Of a stretch of DNA of 64,000 nucleotides, positions 24,415 through 56,930 are shown piece after piece. Below the pieces are notes generated by a model. That model was not told the origin of the DNA. It made no database searches and was given only the letters and a program-made list of their open reading frames with translations. Numbering within the stretch: position 1 is the first letter of the stretch; each line of letters starts with the position of its first letter. Made by a program: the position numbers and the translations under genes. The stretch comes from Myrmaecium sp. VS I D KN 1 (lineage: Eukaryota; Ascomycota; Dothideomycetes; Valsariales; Valsariaceae): contig JADQAV010000007.1 of the NCBI GenBank assembly GCA_019775845.1, forward strand, positions 310,390 through 374,389, given 5' to 3'.

Positions 24415-27400
24415 TTAGGAGAGGTGGAAAGCGCCCTGGCCTTCCTTGGTTGCAATCGCCAGCTTCTCGCGGAGAATCTCCAGGGTACTATAATCGGGCA
24501 TCTTCAGATAGTTCACACACGTCATCACGCTGGGAAGGTAGTCATCGGACGTATACGGTGGCTCGCTCGGCTTGCACACCACGGTGAACATGGGCGTGAG
24601 AGCTTTGAAACCTACAGAGTACGTTAGCATACTTTGGATCGACAACGAGAGCATCACATTCAGACACGTACCTCCGATTGGGAGCTTAGGACTCCCGGTC
24701 ACGAATTGTAAGAAATCTCGTCTCTCGGTTTGGTTGAGCTCACTCATGACTTGCAAAAGATTGCGAACGCTGCGACTGTCCAGGTTGAACCCGTGGTCCG
24801 CCTTGACCGAATCCATTAAGGCTTTGGATCTGCTGTTAGCTCGAGTAAGGAGGTAGACGGGCATCGAAACTTACTTTCCAGGGACCAGTCTTCCTCAACC
24901 CGACCGAACAACATGACAAGTTCGTCAGGAGTAAACGCACTCAGGGCCGTGTAAGGGAATACCTCAGAGAAGCCAGAACGGAAGGAGTCGACCTGTTTTT
25001 GCACCCCAGTACCCAAAGTGAAATCCAGAACTCTGTCGACATATAACGTGACGTTGTCAATGTTGACCGGAATGTCGGATCCGCCCGGGATCAATTCGAT
25101 ATGGGGATACCCGGGGAGAGTGAAATCAAGAGCGAGATCTTCAACATGCACATCATTGACTGTTATCTCTGCGCTTGCTCGCACTTTCTGGGCTGGCGTG
25201 AGTGACGGATCTTCGTCGACCTGCTTCTTAGCGTTGGCAAACTGTTTGAGAAGTTTAAGGGACCTAGCCAGTCCCTCATCGACCGAGGCGATGGCGCCGA
25301 GGGAAGGCTTGACAGCTAGACTGCCTGAACCAACACGGAAGAACGTGGGATTAAATGCGATATCAATGATCCTGGAGTCCAGCATTGAGCGTGCCACGAA
25401 TTTGCCGAGAATCCGGAAAAAGTGAAGGATACGCTTTCCAGCCTCCGTTTGAGCGAATTCGTCCGTGATTGGTGCCGGGAAAAGACCTTGCTTTCCGAAC
25501 GCGTATTCGTCGTCTTTATTCGACTCATTCTCCCGCCACAACTTCAGTCTCTTTTTACAGAACTCCCTTGAGACTGTAGAATAGAATTCAAGGGTCGGAC
25601 CAAGACCGGTGCCCACTTCCTCGAAGTACTCCACCTCCAGGATGCTTGGTGAATCACCATACATTTCCATCACCTTGATACCAGACTCGAGAATCTTCGC
25701 TCGCGAGATTCGAACCTTTTGTCGTTGGATTCGACCGAGGAACGGTCGATCATTGTGACGGGAATCGCTGGTTGTTTGTGAGTTCTGCCAACGCGTCATT
25801 GAGCGGGAGTAACCAAATGACGTTGATTGGAGGAACAAATGGCGAGTCTCGAAGGGGAAAAGGAAAGGATACAATCGAGCAAGATCCTCGCTCCAGGTGG
25901 GGAGGCAGTTGCTCGCTACGATAAGCGGCTCCTCGAGTTGACGATTCAGCTTGGCTGTCAGTTTCGTGTTCACAAATTGTGACAGTGGCTCTCTGTTTAA
26001 TTTGACGTTTTGTTTGTTCTCTGCTAGGACGTCTTCGATATTCGCGTTCATTTCGTGCAGAATGCTCAAGAGCCGCAAGATGGTGGAAGTCATTGGGTTC
26101 TTATCCAAAGACAAGGGTAAACCGGACTCCGCCGCGACCGAAGATGTAGGAGAACGAGGAGTAGAGCTGGCAGGTGGAGGACCAGGGACCCGTTTAAAGT
26201 TAATGGTATGAATCGCAGACCATATCGTGCGAGACGAGATGTCGTTGGGAGACATGGGGTTGAAGTGAACAGCTCTATACACAGTCGTATCGTTCGCTAA
26301 CCTCTGTCCATTGACACTGAACTCTAGATGCCAATCCTGAGGTGTAGACTGGACGGCAGCGGCATATGAGAAAGGCTGCCGACCCATTGGGGCACCAGGC
26401 GTTTGCGGAGATGGGGTTCCACGAGCAAGTGCAGCAAGTCGAGCGAGACGCTCACTTGGTGTCTGTCGACTCGTAGCAGGATTGTGTACAGGAGTAGCAA
26501 CTCGCGTGCCGTCCTCACGGCGTGCCGTAACTTTGCCAGTCGATGCCACCTCCATGTTGACGGGTGCTTGCTCAGCGCCCGGTGTTTCATGGTCATCCTC
26601 CAGGTCGTCAACAATTGCATTGAGAGCATCGTCATCTTCCGCAATATCTTCGTCAGATAAACGCTCCTCATCCGCACATTCGAGTTGCTCATCATCCCCG
26701 GAAGGCTTGTTCAAAGGAGGCGGCGATGGCGGGGCACTGTCCGGCGCTTGATTCCTGCGGCTCGATCTAAGAGAGGATGATGTGCCTGGAGTAGAACCGG
26801 AGGCTGCAGGTGCTGCCGTAGAGGCTTTAGGCGTCTTCTTTGCTTGAGATCGATTGGTAGTATCAGAAGCAGTGGGAGGAGGAGGCAACGGCCCGTCTCC
26901 ACGGCCAGCCAACGCCGCTGCATAGGCAGCAATGGCATTAGATACATTGTCTCTCGATCTCCTAGGGCGTTCCGCAAGACTAATCCGGGGACGAAGGTAA
27001 TCATCTAGCGCCTTGAAAGTCGCTACGGCGTGGATTGATACCATAATGTTTCGGTAGCCATGTGGAATACCAGATTCCTCATCAGCCACTAGCTTTAGGC
27101 GAAGTTGTTTGGCAAGCATGGAAGCGGCGCTGCTCCGATTGCTGTCGTAAGGATTTTGATGGACCGTGATTACTTCGAAATGTTCTGATCTGCTCAAGAG
27201 GTCCTGCAGTTTGCTAACAAGGATGCTGAACGGAGTGGATGGGGAAGACGCGGTAGTAGTTTTCTGCTTGCCTTGGGTAGTGTAGCCCATGAACGCTTGC
27301 AAGAACGCCATTTTGGCTTCTACCGTGGGCGGACTGTCGTGCTGAGAGAAGATCTCGAGAAGGGAGTGGATGACTCCGGAGGTTAGCAGCTCGTAACTGG

Positions 27401-30102
27401 TAATGCCCTCTAAAGCGTCGCCATCGAAATAGACCGCAAGCCGGTCGAAAAGAACTCCAAACTCAGACACCCGTCCCTGAGCGTAGCACGTCTTGATCTC
27501 GCCGGCTATAGATTTCAATTGGTCGAGGATAGAGGATGCCTTCGCCTTGGTGGACCGAGAAGTATCGATCTCGTAAGTCTCTTTAAATGCCTTAGCACGG
27601 AGAGTGACAAGATCTTCCTCGCTCACTGAGCGCAAGGGAGGTGCCTTCGACGACAAGTAATTGACAGAAGATGAAGCCGAATCAGAATCGGAATCATTCT
27701 CTTCATGATCAACACGGTCCTCGTCATCGTCATTATCTGATCGTTCATCTTCCTCTTCCTCGTCATCTGGGTCATGATCCACATCCATATCCTCAACTGA
27801 GCTTCTGCCAGACGAATTGGCTGGTTCGATCGCAATGGCAGTCCTACTACTCTTGAGCGTCTCTTCCAAGGACGTACAAGTACGGCTTGCTAAGCTCGAA
27901 ATCTCTGCGAAGACACCTTCACGATAGAACTGATATCGGTAGATGGGCTCGAGCCGTACGAGAAGTAGCTCAGCAGCCTGCAGGGCGTACTTCACAAGCG
28001 AAGTGTGCTCCTTCTGCGTGAAGATGGAGGCAAGGAAGGAAGCATATGGTACGGTACGAAGGGCATCTTGCAGTATATCCGTGCTGAGATTAGAAAGCAT
28101 CTTCAAGTGGGCCGTCAAAACTTTCTCGCGGACCATCAAATTTACTGTACTGGAATACGCATCGGTCAAGGTCGGTAGGAGGATAACAGCGAATCGCTTG
28201 AGTTCCTCGGTACACCCCTCAAGAAGTTCGATGCGTTTCTCATTGGAGGCCTTCCTTGACGCACTGGAGCCGGGTAGCCACGATTGTTCCATGGACTCAT
28301 CATCCAGGCCTTGCATGTGTGCTAAGCCATTGAACGAGATGTCCGGTAGCAGCTCGCAGATGACATTCAGAGTCTCGAAGATTTGCTCTCGAGGCCGATG
28401 AATCAGCGCTTGCATGACCACAACACTGTCGATCTTGGTGGCAATATCTTCTGTGCCGCTAGGTGGAGAAGTGCCAGTGAGTATCTGATATAGTGTATCC
28501 ACCACGTTCATCCGAAGAAGTTCAACTGAAAGCCTAGGGCTTGCTCGGGCGGTATACCAAAGCGTCTTCAGGAATAATGTATGGATATTCGCGTTGATCA
28601 TATTGGTCGATCCGGGAATAAGTAACCCTAGGATAGCTCTCAAGAGGTCGGTGCTCACAAGCTGCTCAAGCTTGTCGTCCCTCGTTCTAAAGCTTTCAAC
28701 CAGCCGTGTGACCGACAAGCAAGCTTGCTCAACCACCTTTTGATCGCTGCTCCCGAGAACGTTGAGCAAGGTCGGCATAGCTTCTTTCACCATATCAAAG
28801 GACTCCTCGGGGACATTCCGAGAGCAATTCGCTACCGTGGTCACCGCCGTCCTCTGTGTTCCCGTTGCAAAGAATTCCAAGGGCGTGAGGATGGCATTAA
28901 GACCACCTTCTCTGACTATCGTTGCCGGGAACTCCACCGAGATTTTTTCTAGTGTACTCAGGGTCTGCTCGGCCAATTCGATGTCACTGATAATGAGAAG
29001 TTTAGAGCACAGTATGGGGACTGCACCTCCATATACAACATTGGCAGTCGCCGCAGGAAGGGCCTCCATGAGGTTGGCTAGGCAGCGGCACGCGTAGAGC
29101 TGAATATCTGGAAGAACGAACTCCTCTGCACCAGGAGGGACATCCAGAAACTTGACCAGTTCTTTGACATACTGATCTGGAGAAAAATGGCCCGCGAGAT
29201 TATCTTCAGTCGACACGAGCAGGAGTTCAGAGAAATCTTGTAGAGCAGAGAGTTGCACGGATATGTCGTCCGACCGCATGTTCTCCAATATCGTACGGAG
29301 ACGAGACGACATGCCCGACATTATACCGCTCAGGGCACGGAGCGTATGTGAAAGGCCTGCGGGCCCTCCAGCACGGCTGAGAAAGCCAGTTCCAAAGGGG
29401 TCGTCATCATCCTCTTCGTCCTCTTCATCCTCTTCAGCGTAGTGACGGTTCACTTCTGCCTCGTCTTCCTCTTCTTCGCTATGATCGCTGTCGCTTGGTC
29501 TGAGAACGGTACCAGTTTCCGCCTCGGCACCATCGGCGCTGTCATCCATCGCTAAGTTGTCATCGTTCTTCGAGCGAGTTTTTCGGGTGCGCCGACTTGA
29601 TGAAGCGTTGGTCGGCGGGACGGCATCTAAAAGTTTAGTTAATACGTAGGGGAAACGCAGAAGAGGTTGCCACGCCGTGTTACCTTTGCCACCCTTCTTC
29701 CTCGACGTACGCTTGCTGGTCGACGGAGCGGATTGGGCTGGTTTCTCCTCGGAAGGCTCCGTGGAAGGCCTTCCCGTACGTTAGTATCGATCCCCTCGAT
29801 GCTGGATTCCCGTATACATACCCAGCGCTTGACATCGCCGTATCGTTCCGCTTCTTACGACGGCTCGTACTACCCTGAGCTGGTGGTGGCGGGGGATTGC
29901 GTTGTTCGACTTTGGCTCGCTTAGACCGTGTTCTTGAGGGCGGGTCCGCTGATTCCGGCTCGATGGGGCTTGTCTCTCGCGGAGGAGCCTTTCGCTTACG
30001 GGCGTTTGACGGTTGAGATAGAGTAGCGGGTGGGGGAATCGGATTCGGATTGGAAGAACCTGCTGAGAGCCTCGCAGAAGAGCGAGTCACTCTGGAAGAC
30101 AT
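24415..30102 (-). CDS. UFD4: Ufd4/TRIP12-type HECT ubiquitin ligase
   Basis: Five exons (30102-29822, 29769-29684, 29626-24875, 24821-24672, 24611-24415) sum to 1822 codons without a break: 1821 residues. The first ~160 residues are basic and Ser/Pro-rich (ARKRKAPPRE, STSKRTSRKKGGK), then an acidic run. Armadillo-like repeats (~200-560) begin at SSRLRTILENMRSDD and include LQLYACRCLANLME-like helices. A long disordered acidic middle follows, then the HECT domain (~1440-1821) with VEYFEEVGTGLGPTLEF, IPVNIDNV and the catalytic Cys1788 in SVMTCVNYL; it ends GQGAFHLS. Ufd4 adds ubiquitin chains to ubiquitin-fusion and N-degron substrates in nucleus and cytosol. The acidic linkers explain several long shadow frames. 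Intron 3 uses an unusual purine-rich acceptor. Confidence 0.95.
24612..24671 (-). other. UFD4 intron 4
   Basis: 60 nt, donor GTACGT and acceptor CTGTAG, phase 1, joining LPIG|G to FKALTPMFTVVC in the HECT C lobe. Confidence 0.9.
24822..24874 (-). other. UFD4 intron 3 (purine-rich acceptor)
   Basis: 53 nt, canonical donor GTAAGT, acceptor ATCCAAAG with no pyrimidine tract. Upstream AGs within the same 15 nt lead to an immediate stop, while AAAG gives the family sequence EDWSLE|TLMDSVKADHGF. Confidence 0.83.
29627..29683 (-). other. UFD4 intron 2
   Basis: 57 nt, donor GTAACA and acceptor CTTTTAG with a TTAACT-type branch sequence, phase 1. Confidence 0.85.
29770..29821 (-). other. UFD4 intron 1
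   Basis: 52 nt, donor GTATGT and acceptor GGGAAG with an ACTAAC branch sequence, phase 2. It produces the basic stretch STSKRTSRKKGGK. Confidence 0.8.
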
Positions 30103-32830: not shown

Positions 32831-33811
32831 ATGTCGTCCGCAGCCAGTCCTGCCTCGTCCGCGCCCTCTTCGCCCCCGCTCAGCGAGCGAAGCACCCCCA
32901 CCCCTCCTCTGCCGGAAACTCTTCCCAACCTCGAACCCGAAGCGCACATGACGTTGGAAACCTACCGCTTCCCAACGCATCGGCTCTCCAAGACCCTCAA
33001 GGATCCCAACCGAACGCCGCTGGTGCTGGTTGCCTGCGGCTCCTTCAGCCCACCCACCAACCTTCACCTCCGCATGTTCGAATCCGCCGCCGATTACTGC
33101 CAGTTCCAAACCGACTTCGAGGTCGTCGGCGGCTTCATGAGCCCAGTCGGCGATGCATACAAGAAGGCCGGCCTAGCCAGCGCGCAGGATCGCATCAACA
33201 TGTGCAAGATCGCAGTGGAAACCAGTTCCGACTGGATCGCCGTAGACCCGTGGGAGCCGCTACACAAGGAATACCTACCCACCGTAAAGGTTTTGGACCA
33301 CTTCGAATACGAGCTTAATGAAGTACTTGGTGGGATCAGCACCCCCGACGGAAAGAAGAAGCCTTGCAAAGTGGCACTGCTGGCTGGTGCCGATCTGATT
33401 CAGACCATGAGTGCCCCGGGGGTGTGGGCACGCGAAGATTTGGACAGGATCTTGGGCCATTATGGCGCGTTCATCCTCGAGCGAAGCGGTACCGATATCG
33501 ACGATGCCTTGGCCAGCTTACAGCAATGGAGGGACAACATCCGGGTCATGGAACAGCTCATTCAAAACGATGTCAGGTCGGTAGTCATCGTATGATACAG
33601 TCTAAGTTGAAAGGCTAACGACTTCTTCAGTTCGACCAAGATCCGTCTCTTCCGGAAGCGGGGCATGTCTATCCGCTACCTGATCCCTGACGGCGTGGTC
33701 AAGTACATCTACGAACATAATCTCTACACAGATGATGAGAAGAAAACCAAGTCATCGGACAAGGGCAAGTCCAATGCCAATGCGGAGGCTTCGAAGGTCG
33801 CCAGTTCCTAA
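32831..33811 (+). CDS. nicotinamide mononucleotide adenylyltransferase, paralogue 1 (one intron)
   Basis: Two exons (32831-33576 and 33631-33811) give 308 residues. After a Ser/Pro-rich leader of about 45 residues comes the adenylyltransferase core. The nucleotide-binding motif is [16 protein letters not shown] (from ~69), followed by [48 protein letters not shown] and, across the splice, [18 protein letters not shown], equivalent to the ISSTxxR motif. NMNAT joins NMN or NaMN with ATP to make NAD or its deamido form; fungal enzymes of this type are nuclear or cytosolic. The positions in SPPTN differ from the SPITY/SPLTY seen in most fungal members, so this copy looks the more divergent of the pair. 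The second NMNAT gene lies 1.26 kb downstream in opposite orientation. Confidence 0.93.
33577..33630 (+). other. intron of NMNAT-1
   Basis: 54 nt, donor GTCGGT and acceptor TTCTTCAG, phase 2. It falls at the same codon region (QLIQNDV|SSTKIR) as intron 9 of the paralogue, though in a different phase. Confidence 0.88.
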
Positions 33812-35071
33812 AGGCGGCGTACCTCGAAATAGCAAATTTCTGCTATGATCCTCCATGTAGATGCTACCATCTCCGGATTCGAGCCCCTGCGTGTTTATCG
33901 GGGAACATCTCTTTGGGCGAACGTCCCTGAGAAGGACAATTGCCTTGCCCGCGTCCCTCTTTCATTTTCCGACAATCTTCAAACTGTACAGTGGCTTTAG
34001 TATCGCACGGGAGACGTGTGCCAGCGCGAAGACGGATGCACCGGATTAAGTGATACCACACCTTCTATCTATTTTTAAGGGTTGCAGATGAAGCTCTATA
34101 CCATCAGAGACAGAGTGCTCCTGCCTTTGGATTAGACATCGCTGGTCCTTTACAACACCACGAAAATAAACGGATAACGGAGATAATCGTACGTTTCGGC
34201 ACCGACCCGGGATGGAGCTGGATGACTCCCGGTCAAAATGCAACGAAACAAACGGCCATGACCACGGTTGCTTACATGCCATCGGCCCGGACATACTTCT
34301 CTTATTTTTTTTTCTTCTATTGCTTCTTTTCTCACGTTTCTTGGGACGGCTCAACGTGTTGATACCGCGTCATCTGTTTCAGACCCTCTTCTTTTTTGCT
34401 CCGCTATTCCGCCATATTGTTTGCGTACGTCATGCGCAACCGAGCTACACCAAGCATATGGATAGCTACTCTCAGTCGCGCCGTACACCTCTCACACATT
34501 CCCTCTTTTCATTTCCCTCCTGTTCCCTTTCCAGAGCGGCGTTCGGCGAGGCCTTCTGCTCTCCTCAAATTTTCTCTTTTTGCTTAGGATACCATGTACT
34601 GCACTTTTATACCGTGCTTTTTTTCGAGTCTTTTTGTTTGTTTGAGAGAACGTTTGGACATGTTCGGGAGATGAAAGGAGGAGAAAAAGCGACGAAGCCA
34701 GACAACAGCTGTTGTTCGGTGCCGCCCCCGCTCTACAGTGAGATTTTCAAAAAATGCATAGTCCATTTGATATCAACGTCTTCTCCTTTGTCTCCGTCGC
34801 GCCTCCTGTTCCTGTCTGCTGCCTGCAGCGTGAAGACGAAATCTGGTAAACCCGAATCGTGATCGTCATCTATTTCGTCATCTCCAAAATCTTTACTAAC
34901 CAAAAAAGAAGGAGAAAAAGGAGAAGGGGAAAAAATAACAAGCGAGAAAACGCCTCCTTCCCCACGTCCTTTCTAGCTCTCTCGTCTCTATCTCTCTCTC
35001 TCTCTCTACACACCCTCTGCCCTTGCTCTGCTTCGCTTGCTCGTCACACCAACCTTACCTTACGCCTTCTC
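33812..35071. other. convergent 3' intergenic region between the two NMNAT genes
   Basis: 1.26 kb, T-rich on the plus strand (34290-34680), with a CT dinucleotide tract near 34990-35008. No third gene or direct repeat of the flanking genes is visible. Confidence 0.5.
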
Positions 35072-36895
35072 TTACGACTTCTCCCCCGCCGAGCCGACCT
35101 GCTCGGGCGCGGCCCCCGCGCCCTCCTTTCGACCTTCATTGCCGTCGTCGGTGTAGAGGCCGTGTTGCTCGATATATCTACGCCAAGGCCAAACGGGGGA
35201 GGAAGGGTGGAAATCAGCAATGTCGCTCTTACGGAAGCCTCTTAAACAAAGAAAGAAAGAAAGAAGGGGAAGAGCGGCAAGCGCGTCTGGCAGGGAGGGG
35301 AGGATGGGGGCTTACGTGATCACCGGCGGGGGGACGAGGTAGCGGATGCTCATGTCCCGGCGGAGGATTAGACGGATCTTGGTGGAGGAGACTGCCAAAA
35401 AAAAAGGGCGACCCGGGCGAAGGGGGTTAGCGAAGGGGGGTCTGTGTTGGTGAGGGGGGGAAATGGCGGGGGGGCGGGGTGGGATGGAGTGGGGTTTGGG
35501 GAAGGGGAGGGGGGGGGGGGGGAGGCGGTGGTTCGTAAGTCCGGTGGGAAATGAGGGGGGAAAAGGGAAGGATTCTGAAGGAATTGGGGAGGGGGAACTT
35601 TGGATGTTGGCGCGCTACGAAATGTCCGCGTGGTCTTTCGGCGATTTTGTTTTGTTGATTGACGGCGTGAAGATGGATGGGCTTACCGTCGTTTTGGATG
35701 AGTTGGTTGACGACGTAGATGCGGTCTCGCCATCTATCTAGGTTCTGCAGGGCTTCGTCCATGTCGGTGCCGGCGCGTTCGATGATGAAGGCGCCATCTG
35801 TTTGGCGTGGAAAAGGAAGAAATCAGTGATGTGTTTGCAGCAGCACTGGGGAAGATACATTGTCCCATTGATCGCTGGATGGATCGTGTGTGGAGTTGGA
35901 GTCGCGATGGATTACATACATTTGCCGAGGATGTGATCCAGATCGCTGGGATGCCAAACGCCGGGCGTAGAAAAGGTGTGGACGAGGTCGGCGCCGGCAA
36001 GCAGCGACACTTGGACCTTCTTCTCTTCTTTGCCGTCCGGGGTGGTCAGCTTGATCTTTGAAAGTTCGGTGTCGAAGTGCTATCCAGGGTCAGCGAAGGA
36101 TGGGTGAGGAGGGTGAGCGCGCAAGCTGGTACGAACATCAAGGACGCGGGCTGGAACTTGTTGTTAGCGAACACTGATATGCATCCCAGATATTTCTTGG
36201 GGCTTCCTGACCTGTGGGTTGATACTCTTTTTGTAAAGGCTACAGTCATGGTATTTAGTGGTGAGTCGTGGATAATCTCCAAGGCTGGGGGGTTTTTGTG
36301 GAGGCCTACCTCCCATGTATCTACCATGATCCACGACGAGCACTCTTCTACCGCCAACCGGCACATATTGATGCGATGATGCGCGCTGACCAAGCCAGCT
36401 TTTTTATACGCATCATTCACTTGGTTTGGTCAGTAGATGCGGTCTCTCTCAGTGGGAGTCTACCGTGCGACTGACCAGGGGAAAGATAACCGCCGATCAC
36501 CTCATACTCGCTGGGAGGGAGTTCAGCAAGGCGCGATAAAACAGGCCAAGGCCACTTACGTGTTGAACTTGGTATAGTCCGCAGCTGCCTCGAACATGCG
36601 TAGGTGCAGATAGGTCAGAGGGCTAAAGGAGCCTTGGAAATGTCAGGATATGGGATGGCGCATGTAGGATGCAAAGAAAGCAGCTTTTACCGCATGATAC
36701 CAGGACGAGAGGGGTCTATAGGGGATTCACACTCGTCAACAACTATGTACAGTATCATGAATTGTCCGCAAGAGGCCAAGCGACGGCAGCTGAAGTGGTA
36801 TGGAAAGTGGGTTCACATACCCTTTTGGGGTTCTTCAGAGTGGTTCTTAAGCGGTTGGTGGGGAAGGTGTAGTTTTCCGGATCCTGCGCAGACAT
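35072..36895 (-). CDS. nicotinamide mononucleotide adenylyltransferase, paralogue 2 (ten introns, intact)
   Basis: Eleven exons, read on the minus strand: 36895-36821, 36715-36691, 36632-36560, 36510-36476, 36419-36310, 36239-36212, 36150-36137, 36079-35920, 35797-35687, 35391-35316, 35177-35072. Every phase agrees and the total is 813 nt: 270 residues. It starts [16 protein letters not shown] and carries [18 protein letters not shown] (~33-50), [52 protein letters not shown] and [18 protein letters not shown] (~212-229). The core motifs match the usual fungal consensus better than those of paralogue 1, and the Ser/Pro leader is missing. The protein is complete, so the fragmented open frames reflect introns and not decay. 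Exons 2, 6 and 7 are only 25, 28 and 14 nt. Intron 7 uses a GTTCGT donor. Confidence 0.88.
35178..35315 (-). other. NMNAT-2 intron 10
   Basis: 138 nt, donor GTAAGC and acceptor GGCGTAG, phase 2. It contains a TTTC-repeat tract (TTCTTTCTTTCTTTC on the minus strand). Confidence 0.8.
35392..35686 (-). other. NMNAT-2 intron 9 with G/C homopolymer runs
   Basis: 295 nt, donor GTAAGC, acceptor TTTTTGGCAG, phase 1. It is C-rich on the coding strand, with an uninterrupted run of 14 G on the plus strand (35509-35522) and several shorter runs. Confidence 0.8.
35509..35522 (+). repeat. poly-G run
   Basis: 14 consecutive G on the plus strand inside NMNAT-2 intron 9, flanked by more G-rich sequence. This is a likely place for length errors and a possible G-quadruplex. 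Confidence 0.9.
35798..35919 (-). other. NMNAT-2 intron 8
   Basis: 122 nt, donor GTATGT and acceptor CCAAACAG, phase 1, joining ILGK to [10 protein letters not shown]. Confidence 0.85.
36080..36309 (-). other. NMNAT-2 introns 5-7 around two micro-exons
   Basis: Intron 5 is 36309-36240 (70 nt), exon 6 is 28 nt, intron 6 is 36211-36151 (61 nt), exon 7 is 14 nt, and intron 7 is 36136-36080 (57 nt, donor GTTCGT). The joined product reads [23 protein letters not shown], which aligns residue for residue with [22 protein letters not shown] of paralogue 1. Confidence 0.83.
36420..36820 (-). other. NMNAT-2 introns 1-4
   Basis: Intron 1 is 36820-36716 (105 nt), intron 2 36690-36633 (58 nt), intron 3 36559-36511 (49 nt), intron 4 36475-36420 (56 nt). 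Exons 2 (25 nt), 3 (73 nt) and 4 (35 nt) lie between them. Donors are GTATGT, GTAAAA, GTAAGT and GTCAGT. Confidence 0.85.
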
Positions 36896-37548: not shown

Positions 37549-38653
37549 TTACTGTTTCCTGAGCTTCTTGTCGGTCGGGAAGAGGGCAGACACATGCGTG
37601 TTGAATCTCCTATCCGCTTCGTCAGCTTGGTCTCCGCATCCCAGAACCATGGCAACAATCAGGACTGGCTCACAGTTTATACAGGTCCAGCCGGCCGTCG
37701 TAGTCTTCCTCAGGCTCGGATTTGGGCATGTAAGCATGATAGGCATCCAAGTAATCCGGACCAAAGCGATTGCAAGCCGGTCGCCATTGTCCGAACTCGT
37801 ACTCGTTATGGGCGTAGAAGCAGCACGCATCGAACACCAGAGGCTTGCCTGACCTTGCGTCGACGCCGGCATTGGCATGCCACAGATCCCCATGAACGAG
37901 GCATGGCCGTACTGACCGACCATCACTCTCGAGCGGACGGAGTAGGCGAGGGATGACCTTGTCGAACAGTACCGGGAGCATCATTTCAATGGCCGGATTG
38001 TATCCGTTGGCTTCAGATTCCAATTTGAGAGCATACCGCAAGCTTTTAGTGAAGTACACCTCCCAACTGTCTTCCCAGTCGTTCAGCTGAGGCAAATTAC
38101 CATTGAACGTGCTGGTATGGAAACCAAACTTGCCATTGGGAGACCTGCTGTTCCCGTGAAGCGCTGCCAGCAAGGCACCGAACTCACCCGGCCGTGGCAT
38201 CTCTTCCTTCATCTCTCGGAACTCAGAGATCAAGAAATGTGCATCTGGCACCGTCTCGTACGAACCCCAGCCGATCGGCTTCGGCACGAAGTCTGGTAGC
38301 ACATCATGAATCGCTCTTAAAGACTCAAATTCCCCTTGCACTATGTTCTTTCCTCGCTCTTGCCGCAACACTTTGACAAAAAACGCTGTCCTGGTCTCAT
38401 CGGATAGTTCGACATCCAGGCGGCTCGTTTGGGCAAAGAAGCTCACTCCGTGGTCCCTAATCGATATCACTCGACAGCCTTGCGGTAACACTGTGTGCGC
38501 GTGAATACGAGAAATACTTCAACCTTTTGACGTCTCGTCTCGTAGAGCCAACGTACCTGCGGCAAGCCCAGGATCAATCGTTGAATCTTCTTCCTTCGAG
38601 TCGAGACTTTCTGGAGCATCCTCAGAAGCAGTACTTTCTAGCATTTTATGCAT
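37549..38653 (-). CDS. fructosamine/ketosamine-3-kinase family protein
   Basis: Three exons (38653-38557, 38490-37674, 37609-37549) give 324 residues, typical for the family. The protein begins MHKMLESTASEDAPES, and a second Met three codons on is an equally good start. It then reads VLPQGCRVISIRDHGVSFFA and continues as a protein-kinase-like fold: FFVKVL with the ATP-binding Lys (~76), PIGWGSYETVPDAHFL, LAALHGNSRSPNGKFGFH, VHGDLWHANAG with the catalytic Asp (~231) and LVFDACCFYAHNEYEFG for the metal site. The short last exon adds RFNTHVSALFP, which is conserved. These cytosolic kinases phosphorylate the sugar of glycated lysines so that it falls off (deglycation); in fungi the physiological substrate is less certain. 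Confidence 0.9.
37610..37673 (-). other. fructosamine-kinase gene intron 2
   Basis: 64 nt, donor GTGAGC and acceptor GGATAG, phase 2, joining LDLYK|L to RFNTHVSALFP. Confidence 0.85.
38491..38556 (-). other. fructosamine-kinase gene intron 1
   Basis: 66 nt, donor GTACGT and acceptor CACACAG, phase 1. Confidence 0.83.
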
Positions 38654-39174: not shown

Positions 39175-41710
39175 ATGCCACGGGAAGCACCTCGTCCCGA
39201 CTACAACTCCGACCACGACCATTACCGTTACGAACGCAGACGGGAGCGATACAGTAGTCGAGACGCAGACGGGTCCCGAGAGAGGATTAGAAACCGAGAT
39301 CCGGACCGGCAACGGCGCCGCAAAGGTCATCGAGCCACTGATAGCAATGGCGAACCTCTTCCGGGATATGGCAACCGTGAATCAAAAAGCCCTACCCCGC
39401 ACAAGGAGCGCCGTGAGCGGCGTCACTCCCGCGGACAGGGCTCGAGGAGCAGGAATCCTAATCCGCTCTCTACCGATGCCTTAGCCTCGCTTGATAAGCG
39501 CAACTCGAAGCAGGGCTGGAGAAATTACGATCATGAATATGTTAAGAAGGTCAGGAAAGAGGAGGAGAAGCTTGAAAGGCAAAGGATAAGGGAGGAAAAA
39601 ATGGAGAAAGCGAGAGCTTTAGAAGCGGAGAGGGAATCCAAGAGGCAATATGAAAGTGATCGAGAACTGGAGAGGGAGAAGGTGCGAAGGGCAAAGGCTG
39701 CCGTGTTTGAGGAGCAGCAGCGGAGAAGCTACACCGATGACGAGACGGACGAGCGGTTCAGGGGCAGGTATTTGAGCGAGGAGAGGAGAGAGCATCACAG
39801 CGCTGAAGAAGGGAGAGAGAGGAGGCGGAGGAGAGAACGGCGGGGTTTAGAGCGGGATATGGTATACGATCCCCCGACGAGGAAGAATAAAAGCAGGGTT
39901 GTCAGCGGTCCTCTTCTGGAAGAGGGAGGGAATGATCCGGATTATGAGTTCTACGACCAGATGCCCGAGAAGCGCGGAGGTGCGGGCACCGAACTGCTTG
40001 AGTCGGAGGAAGAGGAACGTAAACGGAAGAAACGGAAGAAACTATGTAAGATCTGATCTACTTATTTTCTTCTTGAGACTGCAGAATCTGACTGGATTAC
40101 CAGGGATCATTGGAGGGGTCATCGTTGTTCTCCTTGCAATCATTATCCCGGTAGCAGTTGTTGTGTCCAACAAGGACAAGTCATCCAGCGACGACGTGGA
40201 CTCCGCTGCACAGGACGACTCGAAGCCGTCTAATAGCAATCTCAAGAACATCTCGGAAGATGACATACCTGCGGCCGCGCAGGGCACGATCCTGGACCCG
40301 TTTACATGGTACGACACGGAAGACTTCAATGTTACCTACACGAACGAGACTGTCGGCGGGCTCCCCATCATGGGGCTCAACTCCACTTGGGACGACAGCG
40401 TACGGGCCAACGACAATGTCCCACCTCTGAACGAGACTTGGGAGTATGGGACGATGCCGATCCGAGGGATGTGTTTGGGGGGCTGGCTTAACTTGGAACC
40501 CTGGATCACGCCCTCTTTTTTCGATCAATACACGACCAGCGAAGGCATAATTGACGAATGGACGCTGACGAAGACTCTCGGCTCGAAAGCCGCGTCCACC
40601 CTGGAGAAGCATTACTCGGAATTCGTTACTCGAGAAACCTTCGAAGAGATTCGAGCAGCTGGGTTCGATCACGTACGGCTGTCCTTCAACTACTGGGCCG
40701 TGACTACGTACGATGGGGACCCTTACGTACCCAAGATCTCGTGGCGATACCTTCTCCGGGGCATCGAATGGGCACGTCAAAACGGCCTGAGAGTCAATCT
40801 CGACTTGCACGGAGTGCCCGGCAGTCAGAACGGCTGGAACCATAGTGGCCGACAAGGAGTGATCGGTTTCCTGAACGGCACAGATGGCGATCTCAACGCA
40901 CAACGCACCCTCGATATTCACAACCAGTTATCTCAGTTCTTCGCGCAGCCGCGCTACAAGAATGTCGTCACCATGTACGGCCTCATGAATGAGCCGCGCA
41001 TGGTGGATCTCAACACCGACAGCGTGATCGAATGGTATAACAAAGCGATCCCGCTGATCCAGGGAAACAACATCACCGCCATCATCGTCTTCGGCGACGG
41101 CTTTATGGGGCTGGACAACTGGCAAGGGAAGCTCCAGAACTACACGAACCTGGTCCTCGACGTGCACCAGTACGTCGTCTTCAACGTCGATCAGCTCGTG
41201 CTGGGCCACGCGGACAAGGTCAACTTCGCCTGCGCGGCCTGGACGTCCCAGACGGTCCGCAGCAGCAACAACTCGACGGGCTTCGGCCCCACGCTGACGG
41301 GGGAGTGGAGCCAGGCGGACACGGACTGCGCGCACAACCTCAACAACGTCGGCGTGGGCACGCGGTGGGAGGGCACGTACGACACGGGCAACTCGAGCAC
41401 CTCCGTCCTCGACCCGACCTGCCCGACCAAGGACAGCGCGTGCGAGTGCGACGACGCGAACGCGGACCCGAGCGCGTACAGCGACGCTTACAAGCAGTTC
41501 CTCTACCAGTTCGCCCTCGCGCAGATGGAGAGCTTCGAGAAGGGCTGGGGCTGGTTCTACTGGACCTGGGTGACGGAGTCGGCGCCCCAGTGGAGCTGGA
41601 AGACGGGCATGGCCGCCGGCATCCTGCCCTCCAAGGCCTACGATCGGGACTGGAAGTGCGCGGATGGCATCACGAATTTCACGACGGCTGGCTTGTCGGA
41701 GGAATACTGA
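39175..41710 (+). CDS. exgD: ExgD, membrane-anchored exo-1,3-beta-glucanase (GH5)
   Basis: Two exons (39175-40045 and 40104-41710) give 825 residues. The first 290 residues are a very charged cytoplasmic tail (Arg/Glu/Lys-rich, e.g. RKEEEKLERQRIREEKME, probably coiled coil), ending in a basic cluster before one membrane anchor (about 291-312, WIIGGVIVVLLAIIIPVAVV). The extracellular part has many Asn-X-Ser/Thr sites and the GH5 fold: GMCLGGWLNLEPWITPSFF, FDHVRLSFNYW, LHGVPGSQNGWNHSG, the acid/base Glu587 in GLMNEP and the nucleophile Glu691 in LTGEWSQAD. The enzyme releases glucose from 1,3-beta-glucan at the cell surface and remodels the wall. Acceptor 40103 was chosen because it alone restores the phase. 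The last third of the gene is much richer in G+C at third positions. Confidence 0.95.
40046..40103 (+). other. exgD intron
   Basis: 58 nt, donor GTAAGA and acceptor ATTACCAG, phase 1, splitting the Trp codon T|GG at the start of the membrane anchor. The stronger-looking CTGCAG at 40080-40085 is out of phase. Confidence 0.88.
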
Positions 41711-55113: not shown

Positions 55114-56930
55114 ATGCCTTTTCGTTCCGACAATCCCATCGTCAAGGTGGAACCGGGTTCCATCCATACCATCGACACCACCAACGTTGAGAACCTGTTC
55201 GGACTGTGGTCTGGTAAGACCTACCCACCTTCAAAAGACCGCATCCTCCCTCATCCCGTCTACTCTCCTTTCTCAATGCCCGCTCCGCATCCCTCTCTCC
55301 CCCACCCATTTTGCTGACAGTACTTTTTCTCATCTCAACAGTGTTTTCAAAATGTTCGGGATCAATGGAAGATGGTAAACGCCTAGAAAACCTGAGCTGG
55401 CGCCTTTGGACGAGAGAAACATTCTGTTGCGCGCCTGACCATCACGCTGTCCTGTCGCCTCAATGGTCCTTTGCCCGCCGGCCTTCGCAGGAGGCTGCCG
55501 CAGTCCCTGAACTTTCTTCCAGCGTCGAGTCGCGATACTCCGCCGTAGAAGACCCAACCGGCACCCTCAACCGTTCCACCTCCTCCCTCTCCCGACCCGA
55601 GCTCGGACGACGCGATTCCACCGACAGTCGTACGCGCGGCAAGGAAAAGCACATTACCCCGACCGACCTCGAAAAAATCGTCTATTCCATCAAAGAGAAG
55701 AAAGAGCTCGAACCGCTGTCGCCGCTACCGCTCGCTCTCCAGCCTTCTGCCACCGTCCCGAATCTGACACAGCCCCAACCCGAGCAACGAGATACCACCC
55801 CCCGGCCCGCTTCCCCTCCGCCGCATATGCTTCCCGAATCCTCGACGTCCACTGTTGCCACTGCCATCGGCAGCGATATCTCAACCATGAGCCCCGCCGT
55901 AGGCTCAGATGCGAGCACTGCCACTGACATGAGTTCACACAGCGTCGTGCGGGGGTTTGAACTGGGCCGTGCGGCCTCCTTTCGCCACTCCACCACCCAA
56001 CTTGCCCCTCCAGCACCGGCACCAATCCTGAGGAACTCCCACTCGCCGCGTTTGGACATGCCAAGGAAGAAGCCTGCCGTTTTCACACTCGGCGGATCCT
56101 CAGATGAGGGCGGAGAGAGCTCTCTGGAAAACCACTTTAACCATCCCATGCGGAGCTCCTTGACGGATGGCTTGAGGAAGCCTGCGTACGGACGAAAGCA
56201 GCCTTCTTTCAGAGAGAAGGTCGAGATCATCCAGCAAGGCAGAAGCGCTTCTGAGAGTGAAGAAGCCATCGAATCTGAATCGGACGACGACGACGACGAC
56301 TCGGAAAACGCCATCGAAGATGACGATGAGTGGGAAGATGATGACGCTGAAGAGAGTGGCACCTCCAGCCCCAACCCGCAGGAGCTATTCCAGCGGGTCG
56401 ATTCACGACCCAACTTGACCTCCCGACGGTCGCTGTTGACCACGCTGATGCATGAGGGGGACCGAAGAGCAGCTTTACAGAATGCGGCCTCGCGATCGAC
56501 CCCTGCCCTTCGTCGGTCTAGGACATCATCGCCGAACGGACCTTCGCTCGGTACCTCCCCCGACTCGGATGACGAGGGTCTTGAGATGCGCCCTCGACAG
56601 ATCCCTCGCTCAAAGCCCATCATCATGACCACCTCCAACACGCATCAGCCAGCACTCTCTCCTCGCACCACCCGCCGTAACATGATGACCACGGAGTTGA
56701 CCGAGTCTCTTCGCAAGCATCTCCTTTGGGAACGCCAGCAGAAGAACTCTACCACCAATGCCGCACTCAAGCGCAGGCACACTTCTACTGACGTGAAGAA
56801 CCTGAAGCAATACCCAGGTGAAGGCCAGCCTGGACCTGTTGCCGGCTATCCGGATCTTTCGAAGAACAACAACTCCTGGAACGCCTACTTTGACCACGGC
56901 CTCCAGGAATACCACGAAAAGGGATGGTAG
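55114..56930 (+). CDS. DUF1752/DUF3295 protein (AreA-N-terminus/Mks1-like regulator)
   Basis: Two exons (55114-55213 and 55342-56930) give 562 residues. The N-terminus reads VENLFGLWSVFSKCSGSMED and KRLENLSWRLWTRE, the DUF1752 motif also present at the N-terminus of the nitrogen regulator AreA and in yeast Mks1. The C-terminus (TTELTESLRKHLLWERQQKN, then HGLQEYHEKGW) fits DUF3295, which in fungi often accompanies DUF1752. Between them are Ser/Pro-rich disorder and an acidic run (EEAIESESDDDDDDSENAIE, ~387-407). There is no GATA zinc finger, so it is not AreA itself. A regulatory role in nitrogen or stress signalling, perhaps by docking a phosphatase or kinase, is possible but is inferred from domain company only. 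Confidence 0.82.
55214..55341 (+). other. intron of the DUF1752 gene
   Basis: 128 nt, donor GTAAGA and acceptor TCTCAACAG, phase 1; it splits the DUF1752 motif at GLWS|VFSKC. Confidence 0.9.

Follow-up and report, generated by a model that had tools for sequence, protein, structure and literature searches.

Two adjacent, convergent NMNAT paralogues with one and ten introns in Myrmaecium sp. VS I D KN 1

A 64,000-nucleotide (nt) stretch of contig JADQAV010000007.1 from the ascomycete Myrmaecium sp. VS I D KN 1 (Dothideomycetes; assembly GCA_019775845.1, forward-strand positions 310,390 to 374,389), referred to here as the window, carries two intact NMNAT genes that lie tail to tail and differ widely in intron content (Table 1). 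Gene 1 is interrupted once and begins with a Ser/Pro-rich N-terminal leader of about 40 residues that has no counterpart in gene 2. The coding sequence of gene 2 is divided among exons of 75, 25, 73, 35, 110, 28, 14, 160, 111, 76, and 106 nt, in that order, which together amount to 813 nt, or 270 codons and a stop; the frame closes exactly, with no internal stops. All ten gene 2 introns have GT-AG ends, and retention of any single one brings in an in-frame stop (introns 1, 3, and 7-10) or shifts the frame (introns 2, 4, 5, and 6). The 14-nt micro-exon sits between introns of 61 and 57 nt and is spanned by the family protein alignment, and the predicted protein as a whole aligns with solved NMNATs across the exon junctions. 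Because the product is similar in sequence to that of gene 1, aligns with NMNATs across its junctions, and needs every intron to be removed for its frame, chance is ruled out as the source of the predicted gene 2 model. A perfect (5/5) match to the branch-site motif CTRAY occurs in 8 of the 11 introns of both genes and is missing from gene 2 introns 1, 3, and 5; shuffled introns yield such a match in 8-27% of cases, depending on the intron. The sequence-only reading in which the pair was first described gave coordinates, intron numbers of one and ten, a product of 270 residues, and convergence across 1.26 kb, all of which proved correct to the base, and the very unequal intron content that it reported for adjacent paralogues is supported by the gene models. 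Gene 2 intron 9 also contains a run of 14 G (C on the gene 2 strand) at 35509-35522.

Profile matches and motifs place both genes in the NMNAT family. The TIGR00482 profile scores 156.7 bits with gene 2 and 153.6 bits with gene 1, each above the curated cut-off of 112.45, and gene 1 matches Pfam family PF01467 with an E-value of 4.1e-16. The GxFxPxTxxH (GSF-x-P-x-T-x-x-H) and SSTK[IV]R stretches of solved NMNATs, presumably motifs with roles in these enzymes, are kept in both proteins, and both would be expected to join adenosine triphosphate (ATP) with nicotinamide mononucleotide (NMN) or nicotinic acid mononucleotide (NaMN), giving nicotinamide adenine dinucleotide (NAD) or its nicotinic acid counterpart (NaAD). 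The two proteins are 62-64% identical (165 of 259 aligned residues, 63.7%). Among solved relatives 9iw1 is the nearest, with 328 bits for gene 1 (59.9% identity) and 312 bits for gene 2 (56.9%), and human NMNAT1 (1kqn) is 47.9% identical to gene 2 and 45.2% to gene 1. The pair resembles eukaryotic NMNATs in passing the family cut-off and in its identity to 9iw1 (57-60%) and to the human enzyme (45-48%); it differs in the leader, specific to gene 1, and in the C-terminal tails. A two-residue GG stretch is present in gene 1 and 9iw1 and missing from gene 2. The suggestion that gene 2 is the better family match finds no support in these scores, 9iw1 favouring gene 1 and human NMNAT1 being slightly nearer gene 2. 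Its supposedly better motif fit fails as well, since the two residues concerned, L/Y in gene 2 and P/N in gene 1, vary among solved NMNATs too (I/F in 9iw1, I/N in human NMNAT1, and P/F in 9rpk). Single-chain structure prediction for gene 1 was poor, with a mean predicted local distance difference test score (pLDDT) of 34.2. For NAD biology the locus holds nothing unexpected beyond the second copy, which possibly differs in location or expression by way of the gene 1 leader. Yeast NMA1 and NMA2 are likewise two NMNAT paralogues in one ascomycete; those genes are intronless and dispersed, whereas the present pair is adjacent, convergent, and unequal in introns.

Table 1. Features of the NMNAT gene pair, in window positions.
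Feature	Position	Strand	Details
Gene 1, NMNAT paralogue	32831-33811	+	ATG at 32831, stop ends at 33811; 308 residues; exons 32831-33576 and 33631-33811
Gene 1, single intron	33577-33630	+	54 nt, phase 2; GTCGGT...CTTCAG; CTAAC branch-like site
Interval between convergent genes 1 and 2	33812-35071		1,260 nt; 3' ends face each other
Gene 2, NMNAT paralogue	36895-35072	-	11 exons, 10 introns, 270 residues
Gene 2, intron 1	36716-36820	-	105 nt, phase 0
Gene 2, intron 2	36633-36690	-	58 nt, phase 1
Gene 2, intron 3	36511-36559	-	49 nt, phase 2
Gene 2, intron 4	36420-36475	-	56 nt, phase 1
Gene 2, intron 5	36240-36309	-	70 nt, phase 0
Gene 2, intron 6	36151-36211	-	61 nt, phase 1
Gene 2, exon 7 (micro-exon)	36137-36150	-	14 nt; most of ARVLD in the TARVLDHF stretch
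Gene 2, intron 7	36080-36136	-	57 nt, phase 0
Gene 2, intron 8	35798-35919	-	122 nt, phase 1
Gene 2, intron 9	35392-35686	-	295 nt, phase 1
Gene 2, intron 10	35178-35315	-	138 nt, phase 2

The genome (25.66 Mb in 66 contigs) looks like that of a filamentous ascomycete, probably in Pezizomycotina, to judge by its short introns and by genes such as the PF11702 match listed below. Within it a search with the gene 2 protein found no third NMNAT copy, all nine matches at E <= 1 falling in gene 1 or gene 2; a copy with even shorter exons, or one in an assembly gap, could escape this search. A Pfam search of the genome with PF01467 matched gene 1 and two other genes and missed gene 2 because its exons are short, and the count of two copies therefore relies on the protein search. 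The other two PF01467 genes were not counted as NMNATs, their open reading frames being read by eye as choline- and ethanolamine-phosphate cytidylyltransferase-like. No fungal NMNAT was found in scans of viral contigs and of genome contigs beyond this genome; their sole match, from Clostridium (23% identity), is a distant bacterial relative and was left unused. Among the top matches of literature searches no title concerned fungal NMNAT paralogues.

Between the two genes, dN is 0.33 and dS is 2.0 (NG86), and 33 of 79 fourfold sites are identical where 28.4 would be expected from composition, which amounts to saturation. Saturation of synonymous sites marks the duplication as old, and purifying selection seems to act on each copy. 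No similarity longer than 12 nt was found between the flanks of the two genes, compared over some 1 kb of upstream and 0.6 kb of downstream sequence. In a tree of six rows, made up of genes 1 and 2 with four solved relatives and attended by a program warning of long branches, gene 1 joins 9iw1 (82/86 support) and gene 2 lies outside; the grouping of gene 1 with 9iw1 recurs in all four taxon sets, with bootstrap values of 81-86% under the default mixture model and 54-74% under a simpler one. Trees in which genes 1 and 2 are constrained as sisters are not rejected by the approximately unbiased test (p-AU 0.125-0.203). These results speak against local duplication of recent date, and leave one confined to this lineage neither demonstrated nor rejected. 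Of the local duplication first proposed, the adjacency of the paralogues stands; their sisterhood is not what the best trees recover, and the test does not reject it.

Projected onto the gene 2 coding sequence, the one intron of gene 1 falls at nt 635, and gene 2 intron 9 lies at nt 631, both near the junction of NDV and SSTKIR. The sites are 4 nt apart and differ in phase (phase 2 in gene 1, phase 1 in gene 2). The first reading noted a near-shared site in different phases; the argument against a simple copy that was drawn from it is weak, because 11.4% of alignable positions are at least as close to one of the ten gene 2 introns. Sliding, independent insertion, or chance could each account for the near-match, which carries little weight as a record of history. 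A rival history is a one-step retrocopy, with gene 1 arising from spliced gene 2 messenger RNA, landing alongside, and then gaining one intron. None of the ten gene 2 introns lies at its exact site in gene 1, as a retrocopy would have it, and the one intron present is 4 nt off; however, a free retrocopy is unlikely to land beside its parent, and the best trees do not make gene 1 the sister of gene 2, an arrangement that is not rejected either (p-AU 0.125-0.203), leaving such an origin quite improbable. A poly-A tract or target repeat from such an event would hardly survive at such an age.

Per kb of coding sequence, the intron count is 12.3 in gene 2 and about 1.1 in gene 1. For nine chaperonin genes of the same genome, with a summed profile length of 13.2 kb, it comes to 12 to 15 introns in all (0.9-1.1 per kb), a lower bound composed of 12 introns between matched stretches and three suggested by in-frame stops; one match (C15), inside a 2,541-amino-acid frame and judged to be another protein, was left out, and actin and UQ_con searches were excluded from the density counts. 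Small GTPase genes are denser, with 6 introns in 618 nt of a Rab7-like gene (C21:241400-242500) and 4 introns in 591 or 579 nt, depending on the acceptor, of a Rho1-like gene (C11:242500-243700), or 6.8-9.7 introns per kb, with intron lengths of 44-151 nt; these loci were picked for their fragmented look and named by eye, and they prove that dense genes exist, not how frequent they are. Gene 2 is at the high end of the intron-dense class present in this genome, above both GTPase genes, and it may be gene 1 that is exceptional among such genes. Horizontal transfer of gene 2 from an intron-rich fungus would account for the contrast in density; it is highly improbable given that third-position GC is nearly equal in the two genes (0.725 and 0.712), that nine of the ten gene 2 introns (49-138 nt) are sized like the introns of the two GTPase genes, intron 9 being longer, and that 9iw1 is no nearer gene 2 (56.9%) than gene 1 (59.9%).

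Introners and introner-like elements have been reported in Pezizomycotina and could put many introns into one gene (according to PMC9860276); here, no second genomic copy of the gene 2 introns was found when the whole gene and introns 1, 8, and 10 singly were searched. Introns 2-7 and 9 were searched genome-wide only within the whole gene, and since that search passes over simple repeats and highly frequent words, and had no positive control, an abundant family could be missed. Among the gene 2 introns no match exceeded 10 nt, and between them and the window none exceeded 18 nt, the longest being to a TTTC repeat. An end-repeat signature of break repair, beyond that of shuffled sequences, was absent from all ten. 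An introner origin is unsupported in these searches, with neither similarity among the introns nor a second copy. Comparison with human NMNAT1 places the human intron at c.299 1 nt from gene 2 intron 7 and another, which we take to lie at c.115, 1 nt from gene 2 intron 3. Proximity of 1 nt or less is expected by chance for one or more of the two documented human sites in 7% of cases, and for two or more of three, with the assumed c.115 included, in 0.4%. The documented sites, c.299 and c.439, are those given by variant names and text in PMC7956282.

Taken together, the evidence inclines us to the reading that the introns of gene 2 are mainly ancestral and that gene 1 has shed them. Loss is favoured because no second copy of the introns searched and no end repeats were found, two sites lie near human ones (one of these the assumed c.115), dense small genes occur in this genome, and, across fungi, intron loss is reported to exceed gain (PMC8476143). 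An intron-rich small housekeeping gene would have been duplicated long ago in a filamentous ascomycete that is otherwise poor in introns; gene 2 would have retained most of the ancestral introns, perhaps with some later gains, as some other small conserved genes here seem to have done, and gene 1 would have shed nearly all of them, probably by recombination with, or origin from, spliced complementary DNA (cDNA). The sole gene 1 intron would then have survived with a shift of 4 nt or have been inserted afterwards. The choice originally posed between cDNA-derived loss and intron gain was a fair one, with loss in gene 1 the side that the evidence favours.

Several observations weigh against this. 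The density of gene 2 exceeds the published ancestral means, which are 7.6 introns per kb for the fungal ancestor and 0.98 for the Pezizomycotina ancestor, with about 0.47 in present species (estimates of PMC8476143), and 3.7-4.7 for Dikarya (estimates of PMC3174169). The Poisson probability of at least 10 introns in 813 nt is 0.10 at 7.6 per kb, 0.001-0.006 at 3.7-4.7 per kb, and 1.4e-8 at 0.98 per kb. A cDNA route primed from poly-A is expected to strip 3' introns first (as described in PMC2395259), contrary to the position of the only gene 1 intron near the 3' end of the gene. Genes 1 and 2 have no exact intron site in common, no human NMNAT1 intron coincides exactly with a gene 2 site, and the human c.439 intron lies 58 nt from the nearest gene 2 intron.

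The converse history starts from an intron-poor ancestor resembling gene 1 and has gene 2 acquire the majority of its ten introns once the duplication had taken place. The density of gene 2, beyond even the inferred ancestral means, would fit such gain, as would the closeness of gene 1 to the chaperonin genes (1.1 per kb against the lower-bound 0.9-1.1), and massive gain in one fungal gene has a precedent in basidiomycete alpha-amylase, likewise a fungal family with unequal introns, for which intron sliding, in one case by one base pair, is also reported (PMC3584928). In that family, however, the gains are described as following a bacterial gene transfer, whereas NMNAT here is an old eukaryotic gene. 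The searches made found no repeated intron family and no direct-repeat footprint, other small genes of the same genome are dense, and the published bias is towards loss. Two gene 2 introns also lie 1 nt from human sites, one of these being the assumed c.115. Post-duplication gain is accordingly a possibility on the doubtful side, and a burst of it in gene 2, with no introner elements, in a lineage where loss is reported to dominate, and beside a neighbour near the density of larger genes, appears unlikely. Under the reading of retention in gene 2 and loss in gene 1, the pair offers a natural comparison of the two outcomes within a single locus where both gene copies are intact, and an orthologue tree from related fungi would let each of the eleven intron sites be scored as ancestral or new.

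The neighbourhood of the pair includes a fructosamine kinase-like gene (37673-38518, minus strand) directly upstream of gene 2 and on the same strand, and, on the far side of gene 1, a TRIP12/UFD4-like HECT ubiquitin ligase (24418-29780, minus strand) whose HECT domain extends over two frames, as if an intron lay near its 3' end. A GH5 glucanase-like protein (PF00150) with a membrane-like segment, recognized by eye, is encoded at 39851-41707 on the plus strand, and a PF11702 match with a GATA_AreA stretch lies at 55218-56927.

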